The notes below the pieces were generated by a model, which had not been told where the DNA came from, ran no database searches, and worked only from the letters and a program-made list of their open reading frames with translations. DNA of 64,000 nucleotides from Methylotenera sp. G11 (GTDB lineage Bacteria; Pseudomonadota; Gammaproteobacteria; Burkholderiales; Methylophilaceae): NCBI RefSeq assembly GCF_000799735.1, contig NZ_JUHH01000001.1, forward strand, positions 1,178,001 to 1,242,000. Direction: 5' to 3'. Position 1 is the stretch's first letter. Each line of letters starts with the position of its first letter. The position numbers and the translations under genes are program-made. Below, in pieces: positions 2,924-60,232 of the stretch.

Positions 2924-3691
2924 ATGAGACATTATGCGATGCGTATGGCACAAATGCAATTTAGATTCTCAAACTACACATTTACCCTTTCCTGGACTGG
3001 TTTATTAGTGCTGCTGATCTGTGTACCGCTATTTATTAAGCTTGGCCTATGGCAATACCGCAAGGCTGAGTTAAAGCAGGAAATCCAGGCCAGCTATGAC
3101 AGCGCGCAGGATAATGAGGCATTAAACCTGCCATCCAAGCTTGATCGCCCGGATGAATGGAAATATAAAAAAATAAAAATAAAAGGCCATTACGAAAGCA
3201 AGTACCAGATACTGCTGGATAACCAGGTCGAAGACAGCCGCGCAGGTTTCCATGTACTGACGCCACTCAAGATCGACGGCAGGAATGATTACGTGCTGGT
3301 CAACAGGGGCTGGATTGCAGGAGGCTCAACCCACACCGACATACCGGCCATTGTGACACCTGAGGACACGGTGGAAATCGTGGGACTGGGCTGGGTGCCC
3401 AGCAAAAAGGTTTTTACATTGGAAGATAAGTCAGAACACAAGCAGTGGCATCAAGTATGGCAGCACATGGATATGGAGCGCTATCAGAAAAGCGTACCGA
3501 TCAGTGTATTGCCTGTTGTGATTAAACTGGATGCAAAAAGCAATGCCGGCGGTTTTGTTCGCAACTGGCAGCTGCCTGCCGAAAAAATCGCTACCAACAT
3601 GGGCTATGCCTATCAGTGGTTTGGTTTTGCCATCGCAAGTATCCTGATCTTCCTGTACACCGGCGTGAGCAAAAATAAGAAATCAACCTGA
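2924..3691 (+). CDS. SURF1 family oxidase assembly protein
   Basis: The 255-residue protein has the SURF1 layout: a membrane helix near each end (about residues 24-41 and 229-248) around a large periplasmic domain. Hallmarks are LGLWQYRKAELKQ after the first helix and the ending GYAYQWFGFA. SURF1 helps haem a insertion into subunit I. Several ATGs cluster at the 5' end; the one at 2954 (MQFRF...) matches the usual family start and gives 245 residues. The 2924 start lies only 21 bases from the opposite DUF2909 start. Confidence 0.93.
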   Translation: MRHYAMRMAQMQFRFSNYTFTLSWTGLLVLLICVPLFIKLGLWQYRKAELKQEIQASYDSAQDNEALNLPSKLDRPDEWKYKKIKIKGHYESKYQILLDNQVEDSRAGFHVLTPLKIDGRNDYVLVNRGWIAGGSTHTDIPAIVTPEDTVEIVGLGWVPSKKVFTLEDKSEHKQWHQVWQHMDMERYQKSVPISVLPVVIKLDAKSNAGGFVRNWQLPAEKIATNMGYAYQWFGFAIASILIFLYTGVSKNKKST

Positions 3692-3703
3692 AACTTGGAT
3701 ATT

Positions 3704-4318
3704 ATGCAAATTGGACTAGAAAATAACGAATACCTGCAGCGGCAACGCAAAGGCCGCCTGATGCTGCTATGCATGCTGATATTCTTCATCACCCCCATCA
3801 TCGCCGTCATCGCCATGTATAAACTGGACTGGCGGCCAAAAGGCGAAAGTATCGGCGAACTGGTCGTTCCGGCAAAACTGCTGTCCATGGACTACGCGCT
3901 GATATCGAGTGATGGCAGCGCTGTAAAACCGGACCTGTGGAAAGACAAATGGAGCATGGTGTATGTAGCCGGCAGCTGCACTCAGGAATGCCATGACAAA
4001 TTGCACATCATGCGCCAGCTGCACACCTCCTTATACAAAGAAATACCGCGCATGCAGCGGGTATTCATCACAACCTTGCAGGAAGTCAGCCCGATCAAGC
4101 AAGATTACCCGGATATGCTGATCATCAACCAGCCTGGCACTGAAATATCGGCACTGAGCGACCAATTCAACATCAATAACGAGTCATCCATGAACGCCGG
4201 CAGGATCTACCTGGTAGACCCGCTAGGTCATTTCATGATGAGTTACACGCCGCACACCGACCCGGCCTTGATCCGGAAAGACGTGATACGGCTGATGAAA
4301 TATTCCTGGGCCGGATAA
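3704..4318 (+). CDS. SCO-like, membrane-anchored thioredoxin-fold protein in the oxidase operon
   Basis: The ATG at 3704 gives 204 residues; a TTG nine bases upstream is also open. One membrane helix (about residues 19-38) precedes a periplasmic domain with a C-x3-C pair (C92 and C96, SCTQECHDKL), the spacing of SCO copper chaperones, and a late GHFMMSY segment. Similar proteins lie between SURF1 and ctaA in other betaproteobacteria. SCO proteins load the CuA site or keep its cysteines reduced; that role is inferred here. Its stop overlaps the ctaA start by one base. Confidence 0.75.
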   Translation: MQIGLENNEYLQRQRKGRLMLLCMLIFFITPIIAVIAMYKLDWRPKGESIGELVVPAKLLSMDYALISSDGSAVKPDLWKDKWSMVYVAGSCTQECHDKLHIMRQLHTSLYKEIPRMQRVFITTLQEVSPIKQDYPDMLIINQPGTEISALSDQFNINNESSMNAGRIYLVDPLGHFMMSYTPHTDPALIRKDVIRLMKYSWAG

Positions 4319-42365: not shown

Positions 42366-43124
42366 ATGATGCTAAAGTCACCTATCCAGACCCCTGCCCT
42401 GTCAGGCGCTACCCTGTTCATCTCCGACCTGCACCTATGTGCAAGCCGCCCCGCCATTAACGATGCGTTTATGGCGTTCCTGCAGAATACCGCTTCAAAA
42501 GCGGCAGCGCTTTATATTCTGGGAGATTTATTTGAATACTGGGCTGGTGATGATGATGTTGAAGATGCATTCCATCAGCAGATTATCGGCGGCTTTAAAA
42601 CACTCTCAGATTCAGGCGTTCAGGTATTTCTCATGCACGGCAACCGTGACTTCCTGATTGCCGAAGGCTTTTGCCGCATGACGGGAGCCACCCTGATCGC
42701 AGACCCGACCACCATAGTCCTTTATGGTAAAAAAGCTTTGCTCAGTCATGGCGATGCATTGTGCATCGATGACGCCGCCTATCAGCAGTTCCGCACCCAG
42801 GTCAGGGATGAAAAATGGCAGGCTGAGTTCCTGAGCCAGCCGCTGGAACTGCGCAGAAAACAGATTGAAGCGATCCGTGCCCGCAGCGAGCAGGAGAAAA
42901 CCCAAAAGTCACTGGAGATCATGGATGTGAATGCAGAGGCCGTCAACACCCTGCTCCGCACGCACCAGCCGGACCTGCTGATCCATGGACATACCCACCG
43001 GCCGAATCGTCACACCATCAAACTGGATGGCAGATTAATTACGAGATGGGTATTGGGTGACTGGTACGAACAAGGCAGCTACCTGGCATGCGATGAGCAC
43101 GGCTGTAAAGATATGGCACTGTAA
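42366..43124 (+). CDS. lpxH: UDP-2,3-diacylglucosamine diphosphatase
   Basis: The 252-residue Mn-dependent phosphoesterase makes lipid X in lipid A synthesis. Metallophosphatase motifs are FISDLHLC, LGDLFEYWAGDD, HGNRDFL and HGHTHRP. An ATG one codon later is equally possible. Two 11-bp direct repeats lie upstream at 42289-42310. Confidence 0.95.
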   Translation: MMLKSPIQTPALSGATLFISDLHLCASRPAINDAFMAFLQNTASKAAALYILGDLFEYWAGDDDVEDAFHQQIIGGFKTLSDSGVQVFLMHGNRDFLIAEGFCRMTGATLIADPTTIVLYGKKALLSHGDALCIDDAAYQQFRTQVRDEKWQAEFLSQPLELRRKQIEAIRARSEQEKTQKSLEIMDVNAEAVNTLLRTHQPDLLIHGHTHRPNRHTIKLDGRLITRWVLGDWYEQGSYLACDEHGCKDMAL

Positions 43125-47974: not shown

Positions 47975-48008
47975 TTGTCATTAATATGTCATATTAGCGT
48001 CATAAACT
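47975..48008 (+). promoter_or_regulatory. PHO box and promoter of phoBR
   Basis: Direct repeats TTGTCAT (47975-47981), ATGTCAT (47986-47992) and GCGTCAT (47997-48003) recur every 11 bp. They match the PhoB half-site CTGTCAT at five to six of seven positions. TAAACT (48003-48008) lies 10 bases after the second repeat, the same spacing as in E. coli phoA. This predicts autoregulation of phoB. Confidence 0.8.
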
Positions 48009-48052: not shown

Positions 48053-48745
48053 ATGCCAGCCAACATATTAGTTGTTGAAGATGAACCAGCAATTCAGGAA
48101 CTATTAACACTTAACATCACACAGGCCGGGCACAATGCAATCCGCGCCCTCAGCGTCGAAATCGCGCAGGATCTCATGCGTGAAACTATCCCCGACCTGA
48201 TTCTGCTGGACTGGATGCTGCCGGGGATGAACGGCCTGGAATTCGCCCGCAGGTTAAAATCAGACGCTTCGACCAAGAACATCCCGATCATCATGCTCAC
48301 CGCACGCGGCGAAGAGTACGACAAAATCCGCGGCCTTGAGGTGGGCGCCGATGATTATGTCACCAAGCCTTTCAGCCCGCGTGAACTCAACGCCCGCATC
48401 AAGGCAGTGCTGCGTCGCCGCGCGCCGCAAATGACGGATGACCCGATTGAAGTCCAGGGCCTTCGCCTTGACCCGACCACGCATCGCGTAACCGGCAACC
48501 AGAAAAGCATAGACCTTGGCCCTACCGAGTTCAGGCTGCTGCATTTTTTCATGACGAATCCTGAACGTGTGCATACGCGCAGCCAGTTACTGGATAAAGT
48601 CTGGGGCGATCGCGTATTTGTTGAAGACCGCACGGTCGATGTCCATATCCGCCGCCTGCGAAATGCCTTGTCGATATCAGGCCATGAAGACCTGATCCAG
48701 ACTGTGCGGGGCGCCGGCTATCGCCTGTCATCCCAGAATGAATAA
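48053..48745 (+). CDS. phoB: Phosphate regulon response regulator PhoB
   Basis: The 230-residue OmpR-type regulator has phosphoacceptor D53 in LLLDWMLPG, the KPFSPREL lysine and a winged-helix DNA-binding domain (about 130-230, ending VRGAGYRLS). It binds PHO boxes and turns on phosphate-starvation genes. The ATG follows AAGGAAAA. It is autoregulated, judging by the PHO box upstream. Confidence 0.95.
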   Translation: MPANILVVEDEPAIQELLTLNITQAGHNAIRALSVEIAQDLMRETIPDLILLDWMLPGMNGLEFARRLKSDASTKNIPIIMLTARGEEYDKIRGLEVGADDYVTKPFSPRELNARIKAVLRRRAPQMTDDPIEVQGLRLDPTTHRVTGNQKSIDLGPTEFRLLHFFMTNPERVHTRSQLLDKVWGDRVFVEDRTVDVHIRRLRNALSISGHEDLIQTVRGAGYRLSSQNE

Positions 48746-48857: not shown

Positions 48858-50156
48858 GTGATTGATGTTCGCTGGAAAGCTTTTTTCTTCATATTGTCTC
48901 TCAGTGCAGTCAGCCTTTTTGTATGGCTGACGACCAGCACCACCATCGCGCTGCTCACATTCTCATCGATCCTTCTGATTTACCTTGCGATCCAGGTTTA
49001 CGGGCTGTATCAACTGCAGACCTGGCTGAAAAAACCTATCCTGGGCGATATTCCGGAAGGCTTCGGCTTGTGGGAGGACGTGTTCAACGCAATATTGAAA
49101 TACGAACGCAATAACAATCTTAAAAAGTCCGAATTGAATGCAGCGCTTGAGCGCTTTAACACTGTCGCCAATGCCATTCCTGATGGCCTGGTGATATTGA
49201 ATGCCACCAATGAAATCGAATGGTGTACGGCGAATGCAGAATCCCAGCTTGGTTTGAACCTGGCCACAGACAAGCACCTGCCTATCGTCAACCTGGTCAG
49301 AAACAGTCATTTCATCGCCTATCTATATAACGGGGTCTATAACGACCCTTTCAAGCTCAAAGATGCCAGGAACACTGACGCTATCCTCGAAATATGGCTG
49401 ATACCGCTGGTCAGCAAACAGAAACTGCTGATCAGCCGCGATATCACGCAACTGGAAAAAGTGGATGCCATGCGGCGCGATTTTATTGCAAACGTCTCAC
49501 ACGAACTCAGAACTCCGCTGACGGTGGTCGGCGGGTTCATTGAAACCCTGTCAGACATGGAAGGTGCGGTACCCGAGAGCATACGCGGCTACTTTGACAT
49601 GATGCAGGATCAGACCACGCGCATGCGCAGGCTGATCGAAGACCTGCTGACGCTTTCACATATCGAAAGCAATACACAGCCGCCGGAAGACCGGCCAATC
49701 GAGATGCTGGCACTCATCAATATGCTGCATAACGATGCCAAGGCCTTGAGTAATGGCAGACACCACATCAGTGTAGACATCGACCAGCAGCTCGACCTGT
49801 CCGGCGCTGCCGACGAACTGCATAGCGCCCTCGGCAACCTTGTCAGCAATGCAGTTCGCTATACCCCGGAAGGCGGCGAAATCCGCATTAGCTGGCAGCC
49901 ACGCAACAAGCTGGCGGTTTTCAGCGTAAGCGACAACGGCATCGGCATCGAGCAGCAGCACATAGACCGGCTGACCGAGCGCTTCTATCGCGTTGACCGC
50001 AGCAGGAGCCGCGAAACCGGCGGCACAGGACTGGGGCTTTCCATCGTCAAACACATCTTGACCCGCCATCAGGCCAAACTCGCAATCAGCAGCATCCCCG
50101 GCAAGGGCAGTACTTTCAGCGCCATTTTCCCTGAATCGCGAATTATCAAAAAATAA
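48858..50156 (+). CDS. phoR: Phosphate regulon sensor histidine kinase PhoR
   Basis: The 432-residue kinase has two N-terminal helices without a large periplasmic loop (about residues 8-50), a PAS domain (about 95-195) and the catalytic core. H215 lies in NVSHELRTPL; ATPase boxes are GNLVSNAVRYT, DNGIGI and GGTGLGLSIV. This is the usual PhoR design. It starts at GTG, 112 bases after phoB, where TATAAT (48822-48827) may give an extra weak promoter. phoU and pst genes are not in the window. Confidence 0.94.
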   Translation: MIDVRWKAFFFILSLSAVSLFVWLTTSTTIALLTFSSILLIYLAIQVYGLYQLQTWLKKPILGDIPEGFGLWEDVFNAILKYERNNNLKKSELNAALERFNTVANAIPDGLVILNATNEIEWCTANAESQLGLNLATDKHLPIVNLVRNSHFIAYLYNGVYNDPFKLKDARNTDAILEIWLIPLVSKQKLLISRDITQLEKVDAMRRDFIANVSHELRTPLTVVGGFIETLSDMEGAVPESIRGYFDMMQDQTTRMRRLIEDLLTLSHIESNTQPPEDRPIEMLALINMLHNDAKALSNGRHHISVDIDQQLDLSGAADELHSALGNLVSNAVRYTPEGGEIRISWQPRNKLAVFSVSDNGIGIEQQHIDRLTERFYRVDRSRSRETGGTGLGLSIVKHILTRHQAKLAISSIPGKGSTFSAIFPESRIIKK

Positions 50157-50189: not shown

Positions 50190-50927
50190 ATGAAGACCTT
50201 TTTCTGGTTTATCCTCACTGTACTATCAGCTTTCTCCCTGGCGGGTTGCTCGACTGTTCCGGAATCAGGCAAAACACCGGACAAAGTCATTCCACAGCAG
50301 CAGGATCGCAGCACGATCAACCAGTTAGGCAAAAGTGATTTTGATCGCATGGCCGATGTTGAAATACGCGAAAACGCAGAAAGCCTGCGTGCTTTAATGC
50401 TGAAGCTGTATAAGCGCAACCCGGGTGAGCTTAAAAAAAGCACGTCTGATACCGCGGATAAAATGGCAGCATGGGTGTTTGATGGCGGTGCGCAGCATCA
50501 GTACCGGCTTGAAGAAATCAACAACCTGCAGTCTACGGACGCCATTTTTCAGGCATTCAGACCAGAATACAATGGTGACCGTGTGCTGTCATTCATTGTA
50601 GGGCTGCAAACCATGCTGCTTAAAGCGCATAACGACAAAACCGACTTTTACCTTACCGACAGCATTGATCCGCAGCGCATTTACAATGTAGCGAGAAATA
50701 TTGAAATTGCGGCATGGAAACTGTCGAATGCGCGCAAACATGATGGCACGCTTTATTTACTGACGAATGAAATGAATGAGACCGAGAAGAACTTATCATT
50801 TGAACGCGAATTCGGCAAAATAATCGGCCGTACGGATTTATATGCCATCTCACTTGCGGAAAAATCCCAGCGATTTATTTCGCGCGTGATGCAAAATCTG
50901 GCAACTGCGGTATTCCTGCCTATTTAA
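50190..50927 (+). CDS. Hypothetical lipoprotein in the phoBR operon
   Basis: The 245-residue protein has a lipoprotein signal (LAGC at residues 16-19) and a mostly helical mature part. I recognise no domain. It starts 33 bases after phoR on the same strand, so phosphate control is likely by co-transcription. The GGAGCC-like bases ahead of the ATG give a ribosome site. A GGCGGC/GCCGCC stem at 50963-50991 may end the unit. Confidence 0.8.
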   Translation: MKTFFWFILTVLSAFSLAGCSTVPESGKTPDKVIPQQQDRSTINQLGKSDFDRMADVEIRENAESLRALMLKLYKRNPGELKKSTSDTADKMAAWVFDGGAQHQYRLEEINNLQSTDAIFQAFRPEYNGDRVLSFIVGLQTMLLKAHNDKTDFYLTDSIDPQRIYNVARNIEIAAWKLSNARKHDGTLYLLTNEMNETEKNLSFEREFGKIIGRTDLYAISLAEKSQRFISRVMQNLATAVFLPI

Positions 50928-51013: not shown

Positions 51014-51427
51014 CTAACTCACGCGATCTTGTGATTGCACATATTTAGTCATGGCGGATTTGGCAGATACGACCCGGGCAATTTCTTTACCCGATTTGCT
51101 GAAAAAAATCACGGCAGGCAGTGATGCATCCGGCAGGTTCAATGCAGTCTTGTAGCCCGCAACCTTTTCATTCTCGACTGCCAGCAATAAAGGTGCATAA
51201 CCTTGATTTTGATTGATTTGCGCCAGCAGCAGATAAGCTGCCTCTGCCGCAATTTCACCCCGCTCGGTCAACACCAGAATCACGCCTTTTTCACTTTGTG
51301 CCGCTTTTGAAATAACGCTGGTATGTATATCAAAAGTCGGGCTGGATTTTGCGTATACCGTCAACGCACTGGCCGCCAGAACCGCGCTCAATAACAACGG
51401 CGCTCGCTTCTTCAGTAAATTTTTCAT
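51014..51427 (-). CDS. Exported thioredoxin-like protein without a CXXC motif, putative Pho regulon member
   Basis: The ATG at 51427 follows TTAGGAGATC and gives 137 residues; an upstream ATG adds seven unlikely residues. A signal peptide ends near VYA-KS (residues 25-27). The mature part contains no cysteine. Strand pattern and LPAVIFFSKSGKEIARVV resemble the cis-Pro loop region of thioredoxin folds. A PHO-box array lies upstream. Function is unknown; a stress or redox-fold role under phosphate limitation is only inference. Confidence 0.78.
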   Translation of the reverse strand: MKNLLKKRAPLLLSAVLAASALTVYAKSSPTFDIHTSVISKAAQSEKGVILVLTERGEIAAEAAYLLLAQINQNQGYAPLLLAVENEKVAGYKTALNLPDASLPAVIFFSKSGKEIARVVSAKSAMTKYVQSQDRVS

Positions 51428-51474: not shown

Positions 51475-51530
51475 AGCATAATTTATGCCAATGACAGTTT
51501 GGAGACTTGATAATGAAAGATATATGACAA
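51475..51530 (-). promoter_or_regulatory. PHO box and promoter of the thioredoxin-like gene
   Basis: On the minus strand TTGTCAT (51530-51524), CTTTCAT (51519-51513), AAGTCTC (51508-51502) and the perfect half-site CTGTCAT (51497-51491) follow an exact 11-bp step. TATGCT (51480-51475) begins 10 bases after the last repeat, the E. coli phoA spacing. The start codon is 47 bases on. The rest of the gap (51531-51776) shows no gene or clear element. Confidence 0.75.
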
Positions 51531-51776
51531 GTGTCAGCGCACGCAAAGTGTCGCCGTTATTGGCGCTCAGGCTAACTGACATTCTTATTCCGCAGCCGTT
51601 GAACCGTGTGAACAATGCTTGATTAGCGTGCGTAATGAACCGAATCGTGCATTACACCGGAATTTTAATAAGGATTGTTTAAGCGGAAGCAATCCAACTG
51701 CTGCCAGCTGAACACTCCGCTCATATGCTGCATCAACGCAGTATCGGGCTGGTGCGCGCCAATACTGCGGCGATTG

Positions 51777-60187: not shown

Positions 60188-60232
60188 CTGTCAATAAACC
60201 GTCACTTCTCCGTCATTAATTATTCATATCCA
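60188..60232 (+). promoter_or_regulatory. PHO box and promoter of olsBA
   Basis: CTGTCAA (60188-60194), CCGTCAC (60199-60205) and CCGTCAT (60210-60216) recur with an exact 11-bp step. TATCCA (60227-60232) begins 10 bases after the last repeat. The start codon is 40 bases on and has AAGGAGAAA. This predicts induction of ornithine-lipid genes by phosphate starvation. Confidence 0.78.

Follow-up and report, generated by a model that had tools for sequence, protein, structure and literature searches.

Which RNA polymerase reads the promoter of a thioredoxin-like gene that lies beside phoBR in Methylotenera? The 56 bp ahead of this gene (51475 to 51530 of the 64,000-bp stretch analysed here, referred to as the window) had been taken, from the letters alone, as a PhoB-type array followed by a -10. 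Pho and sigma54 promoters are regarded as distinct classes, and we ask to which of them this stretch belongs. The features concerned are as follows.

47975 to 48003, plus strand: Pho box of phoB, an internal positive control (pattern, matrix and four-phase score).
48053 to 48745, plus strand: phoB (TIGR02154, above cut-off).
48858 to 50156, plus strand: phoR (TIGR02966, above cut-off).
50190 to 50927, plus strand: lipoprotein-like gene between phoR and the thioredoxin-like gene, identified by inspection.
51014 to 51427, minus strand: exported (by inspection), cysteine-free thioredoxin-like protein of 137 aa (predicted fold, sequence).
51475 to 51480, minus strand: TATGCT, a -10-like hexamer overlapping the sigma54-type -12 (sequence, matrix).
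51475 to 51490, minus strand: sigma54-type core TGGCATAAATTATGCT (matrix ranks).
51491 to 51530, minus strand: four PhoB-type half-sites in 11-bp phase (sequence, scores, conservation).
60188 to 60227, plus strand: second-best four-phase array, ahead of olsB/olsA-like genes, an internal positive control (four-phase score).

Read on the minus strand, the half-sites are TTGTCAT (51530-51524), CTTTCAT (51519-51513), AAGTCTC (51508-51502) and CTGTCAT (51497-51491), followed by TGGCATAAAT and then by TATGCT. That is, the four 7-mers do stand in exact 11-bp phase where the sequence-only reading had placed them, and its count of two near-perfect half-sites and a perfect one is borne out by 6, 6, 3 and 7 matches to CTGTCAT. 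The total of 22/28 is the top four-phase score on both strands of the window; since the maxima in 40 windows resampled with the same dinucleotide transitions were only 17–20, a chance origin of the array is rejected. The runners-up are the arrays ahead of the olsB/olsA-like pair (60188, 21/28) and phoB (47964, 20). When a PhoB weight matrix, as that reading had suggested, was trained on the phoB and pstS boxes only and run over the window, the array ranked third; ahead of it were the phoB box, itself one of the training sequences, and, with a slightly higher score, a site at 43044.

At the genome level (2.545 Mb), the double-site pattern YTGTCATNNNNNTKTCAT has exactly four exact matches, namely before the PstS gene (assigned by TIGR02136, above cut-off), before phoB, at the array, and before the gene of a PDZ-like protein. 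Allowing one mismatch gives 30 matches versus 9 for the reversed control, so these looser matches say little. The fourth exact site (L039; G000:C1:2301466-2301483) lies ~53 bp before its gene, and no obvious -10 is seen 10 bp past it; in its C-terminal part the protein is similar to the PDZ portion of HtrA-type proteases, with a match that stays below cut-off. The olsB/olsA-like genes, whose NCBIfam matches to OlsB and OlsA are below cut-offs, are likely to be Pho-regulated genes of ornithine lipid synthesis, judging from their array; predicted Pho boxes upstream of olsB have been reported, for a first matrix, in 21 of 43 Burkholderia sensu lato genomes (PMC7814305).

Lack of conservation of the 11-bp array ahead of the orthologues had been named as a refuting outcome, and the array proves conserved: it stands in the same phase, directly before the core, in 8/8 close orthologues found. 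All of these are Methylotenera, the named relatives being Methylotenera MAGs. In the order window, AG31 copy a, MLJ.18, RIFCSPLOWO2_02_FULL_45_14, UBA6020, MGR_bin363, PB2.3.53 and clean1837, the four-phase scores are 22, 22, 21, 21, 19, 19, 20 and 18, respectively. For the other nine homologous promoters scored, the best values are 14–17 and lie elsewhere in the promoter, with no array seen at the equivalent place in any of them; the margin is narrow, as the lowest array-bearing score is 18 (L020) versus 17, at another position, for the best array-less promoter.

In a gapless block of the eight orthologues, the TGTCA columns of the half-sites show a mean identity of 92.5% (13/20 invariant) and the 16-bp core shows 89% (11/16 invariant), while the spacers between half-sites reach 71% (2/12 invariant). 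The values are 52.5% for the 60 bases upstream (1/60 invariant) and 62.5% for the 30 bases downstream (0/30 invariant), although the gapless comparison makes these flanks look more diverged than a gapped alignment does, where the mean identity is 56%.

The gene itself is patchy, being present in 16 of 187 family genomes and 8 of 52 genus genomes, many of which are incomplete. This indicates an accessory rather than a core Pho function; the proposed new Pho regulon function is supported in part, by the array and its conservation. The tree of homologues is poorly resolved: it gives three changes, one origin of the array is still compatible with it, and both paralogues described below are placed, though weakly supported, among the array-bearing copies. 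G107 was omitted from the tree for its split frame, its thioredoxin-like gene (L048 3083-3449) matching in two pieces in different frames.

The thioredoxin-like gene points toward the lipoprotein-like gene, and the order phoB, phoR, lipoprotein-like gene, thioredoxin-like gene is kept in 7/8 orthologous loci including the window, in agreement with the adjacency to phoBR pointed out earlier. The exception is L020, where tblastn finds no phoBR within its 12.4-kb locus and the array is nevertheless retained; G189, G190 and G107 show the opposite, being near phoBR yet without array. The array is therefore unlikely to be a feature of the phoBR neighbourhood and not of the gene. Apart from this, the phoB of UBA6020 (L015 ~3303-3901) matches in three separate pieces, which may be an assembly error or a broken gene, and a scan of the window for small RNAs gives no Rfam match at gathering thresholds.

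Could the array serve something other than PhoB? Its third half-site is weak (3/7), and PhoB binding is a prediction here, which would leave room for another OmpR-family regulator or for a conserved sequence of other function. Since the same 7-mer and phase recur at pstS, phoB and the ols pair, and the gene adjoins phoBR in 7/8 orthologous loci, we consider this very improbable.

We now turn to the bases after the array. In Pho promoters, the Pho box replaces the -35, and the -10 follows it at a distance of about 10 bp. TATGCT does begin 10 bp past half-site 4, and -10-like hexamers are likewise found 10 bp after half-site 2 at pstS (TAAAAT) and phoB (TAAACT) and after half-site 4 at the ols pair (TAAAGT). 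This agreement is weak because the choice of half-site is free, the distance being counted from half-site 2 at pstS and phoB though their third 7-mer scores 5/7, and from a fourth half-site scoring only 4/7 at the ols pair, and because TATAAT-like hexamers of equal or better quality occur nearby. Around TATGCT itself there are others of equal quality (4/6), and TATGCT is also present in 3/9 array-less relatives. The hexamer is where it was claimed to be and is a candidate -10; it is equally the -12 of a sigma54-type site and has rivals of the same quality.

In fact, the bases taken as spacer and -10 are a conserved sigma54-type -24/-12 core by their sequence, which is also found in array-less homologues. 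The stretch from the last half-site to the end of the -10, TGGCATAAATTATGCT (TGGCACGGCTTATGCT in several relatives), has the -24/-12 form (TGGCAY-type and TGC-type), with GG at 51489-51488 and GC at 51477-51476, and the 10 bp between GG and GC are kept in all 8 array-bearing copies. To score it, matrices were built from 29 Salmonella sigma54 sites printed in PMC3844500. With an 18-position matrix, which was tried first, the core is the top site in 16/17 upstream regions, the window's own being the exception, and only rank 23 in the window, since the pair of bases that follows the core misfits the Salmonella sites. With these two bases dropped, the 16-position matrix puts the core on top in 17/17 upstream regions and first in the window. 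When each region was shuffled 200 times, the core score was reached 0–3 times in 16 regions and 19 times in G094 (score 8.5); the cores of G093a, G201 and MGR_bin363 are on the weak side (12–13 bits). Nine of the 17 promoters are without array, i.e., those of the two paralogues, G189, G190, G107, G093 (two), G201 and G094. The remote homologues G127, G167 and L010 were excluded from the 17; no convincing core is found in the first two and none by eye in L010.

A single sigma54-type site proves little, since YTGGCAYRNNNNNTGCW has 29 exact matches in the genome versus 3 for the reversed pattern. The genome does encode rpoN (TIGR02395, above cut-off). A search for the same PhoB/sigma54 junction at other promoters of the family was uninformative with one mismatch, the pattern being too loose (at least 120 of 187 genomes), and two exact matches outside the gene (L104, L119) have no phased array by eye.

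If the promoter were a plain PhoB/sigma70 promoter, the sigma54-like core would be a nonworking leftover of an ancestral state. It is then hard to see why TGGCA and GC should be invariant in 8/8 array-bearing orthologues whose flanks have diverged, or why the hexamer retains GC at positions 4-5, where the three other Pho promoters of the genome (pstS, phoB and ols) show AA, AC or AG. A -12 shared with the hexamer would require this GC, with three promoters for comparison only. This alternative, to which the conserved array common to pstS, phoB and the ols pair and the lack of a GlrR-type enhancer site in the array-bearing copies do lend weight, is unlikely in our view.

On the other hand, half-site 4 abuts the -24, so bound PhoB would exclude sigma54-RNA polymerase, and PhoB~P may act as repressor of a sigma54 promoter. 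TGG directly follows the last half-site in 8/8 orthologues and, among the promoters examined, the core also occurs without the array but the array never without the core, as such a repressor would have it; TATGCT at activation distance, however, would be needless for repression, with the caveat that this spacing depends on a free choice of half-site. We hold repression to be quite improbable, somewhat more so than a plain Pho promoter.

The paralogues tell more about the core. The window genome has a second copy of the gene (C1:956220-956624), and so has AG31; both adjoin a histidine kinase, a small lipoprotein-like gene and a sigma54-type response regulator, in the following loci.

L042, 1639 to 5625: kinase, small lipoprotein-like gene and GlrR-like regulator, with convergent thioredoxin-like paralogue.
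L017, 5998 to 9943: the same genes, with convergent thioredoxin-like paralogue.

For the regulator of the window genome, the best NCBIfam match is GlrR with 615 bits (cut-off 763; next best 436), whereas no GlrK match is seen for the kinase and no match of any kind for the small protein; the AG31 proteins are recognised by similarity only. A homology between the small lipoprotein of this locus and the lipoprotein at 50190 is unsupported (BLASTP E 0.043).

Both paralogues keep the core and have no array. The stricter form of the GlrR site is TGTC-N10-GACA. Two such sites are present in the paralogue promoter of the window genome and one in that of AG31, 216–281 bp before the start, and G093b also has one; the expectation is 0.003 per shuffled promoter. 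None of the 8 array-bearing promoters has a GlrR-type site, and GlrR control of the window copy is rejected, with neither TGTN12ACA nor TGTCN10GACA in 400 bp. The NifA-type TGTN10ACA occurs once in the 17 promoters, where shuffles give 0.1 each. GlrR/QseF reportedly binds TGTN12ACA, the sigma54 promoter on which it acts being overlapped by a weak sigma70 promoter (PMC6075780), and overlap and competition of sigma54 and sigma70 promoters are also described in PMC3844500.

In several orthologues, a GCAC-containing element (51628-51651 in the window, minus strand) starts ~155–170 bp upstream of the core. It agrees at 18 or more of 24 positions in 5/8 array-bearing promoters and in G107, and at 14/24 in the window and PB2.3.53, with a consensus drawn from the same alignment in which it was scored; it is not found in MGR_bin363. 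The element is possibly an enhancer site.

Overall, PhoB and sigma70 are favoured by the array together with its neighbours and position, and sigma54 by the core, which occurs more widely, and by the paralogue linked to GlrR. We therefore lean, with modest confidence, toward a composite promoter on whose shared bases two holoenzymes would compete. The starting points are the array with its conservation and position, the core with its presence in array-less homologues, and rpoN; what the model adds is the binding, the conditions under which each holoenzyme would work, an enhancer-binding protein and a role for the gene product. Under phosphate starvation, PhoB~P would bind the array, which would replace the -35, and recruit sigma70-RNA polymerase to TATGCT. 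Sigma54-RNA polymerase could also occupy the same bases as -24/-12 and fire on the action of an enhancer-binding protein. As the two holoenzymes cannot bind together, the gene would respond, by way of one start region, both to phosphate starvation and to another signal.

As for the gene product, the earlier claims of export and of a missing CXXC pair agree with our inspection: the protein looks exported, and there are no cysteines at all in the 8 orthologous proteins, hence no CXXC active site as in a redox-active thioredoxin. The two paralogues have one cysteine each, within the signal peptide, and after residue 35 none of 19 homologues has any. The proposed check by structure prediction returned a thioredoxin fold (beta-alpha-beta-alpha-beta-beta-alpha). 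Like the thioredoxin superfamily, the protein has this predicted fold and an LPAVIFF loop whose proline takes the cis-Pro position; it differs in having TERG where thioredoxin has CGPC, a mature protein without cysteine, and no Pfam or NCBIfam match. Our guess is that it may assist the adjacent two-component system in the envelope, as an accessory protein of thioredoxin fold without redox activity.

Parts of this arrangement are already known, namely overlapping sigma54/sigma70 promoters (glmY, glmZ, rhlG) and, in Desulfovibrio vulgaris por, a predicted sigma54 promoter with a PhoB site in its vicinity. The glmY/glmZ promoters of E. coli and Salmonella (GlrR/QseF; PMC6075780, PMC3844500) are among the closest likenesses, having overlapping sigma54 and sigma70 promoters with competing holoenzymes, and the paralogue here has GlrR-type sites and adjoins a GlrR-like gene. 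They drive small RNA genes, however, and no PhoB array is named in the passages concerned, whereas here a conserved PhoB array would serve the sigma70 arm, ahead of the gene of an exported protein. Pseudomonas aeruginosa rhlG also has overlapping promoters, likely sigma70- and sigma54-dependent, but the regulators named in the relevant passages are quorum sensing and AlgU, with no mention of PhoB counted in that paper (PMC4074388). In the D. vulgaris por/lactate operon, a PhoB site, bound in vitro, lies upstream of a predicted sigma54 promoter, though ~47 bp away and not flush with it; according to the passages on this operon, the site is in no other lurR genome except a very similar strain and has no reliable effect on expression (PMC6456213). 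Binding of PhoB to a Pho box has also been reported for the aioBA region of a Halomonas strain, and an RpoN site is given for aioBA of an Agrobacterium, a different organism (review PMC7533571). E. coli Pho promoters share the 11-bp-phased half-sites ahead of a -10-like hexamer, with PhoB taking the place of the -35 (PMC3616915), and differ in that here the spacer and -10 bear a conserved sigma54 signature. In the open-licence literature searched, we came across no description of a PhoB box that directly adjoins a sigma54 core and has bases in common with it, nor of a Pho-regulated CXXC-less thioredoxin.

A further step is possible, though rather doubtful: the 56-bp stretch may be a sigma-factor switch, in which PhoB~P would both recruit sigma70-RNA polymerase and evict sigma54-RNA polymerase, so that phosphate status would choose the holoenzyme and the second signal for an envelope thioredoxin devoid of redox activity. 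Array and GlrR-type sites would then be alternative input modules on the same core in two paralogues, each beside the matching regulator gene.

If the composite promoter is real, a conserved PhoB box, -10 and -24/-12 that share bases would show how a gene may pass between nutrient and envelope regulons with the core unmoved. It would also provide a compact system for testing how two holoenzymes compete, and the Pho response of methylotrophs would gain a cysteine-free protein of thioredoxin fold.
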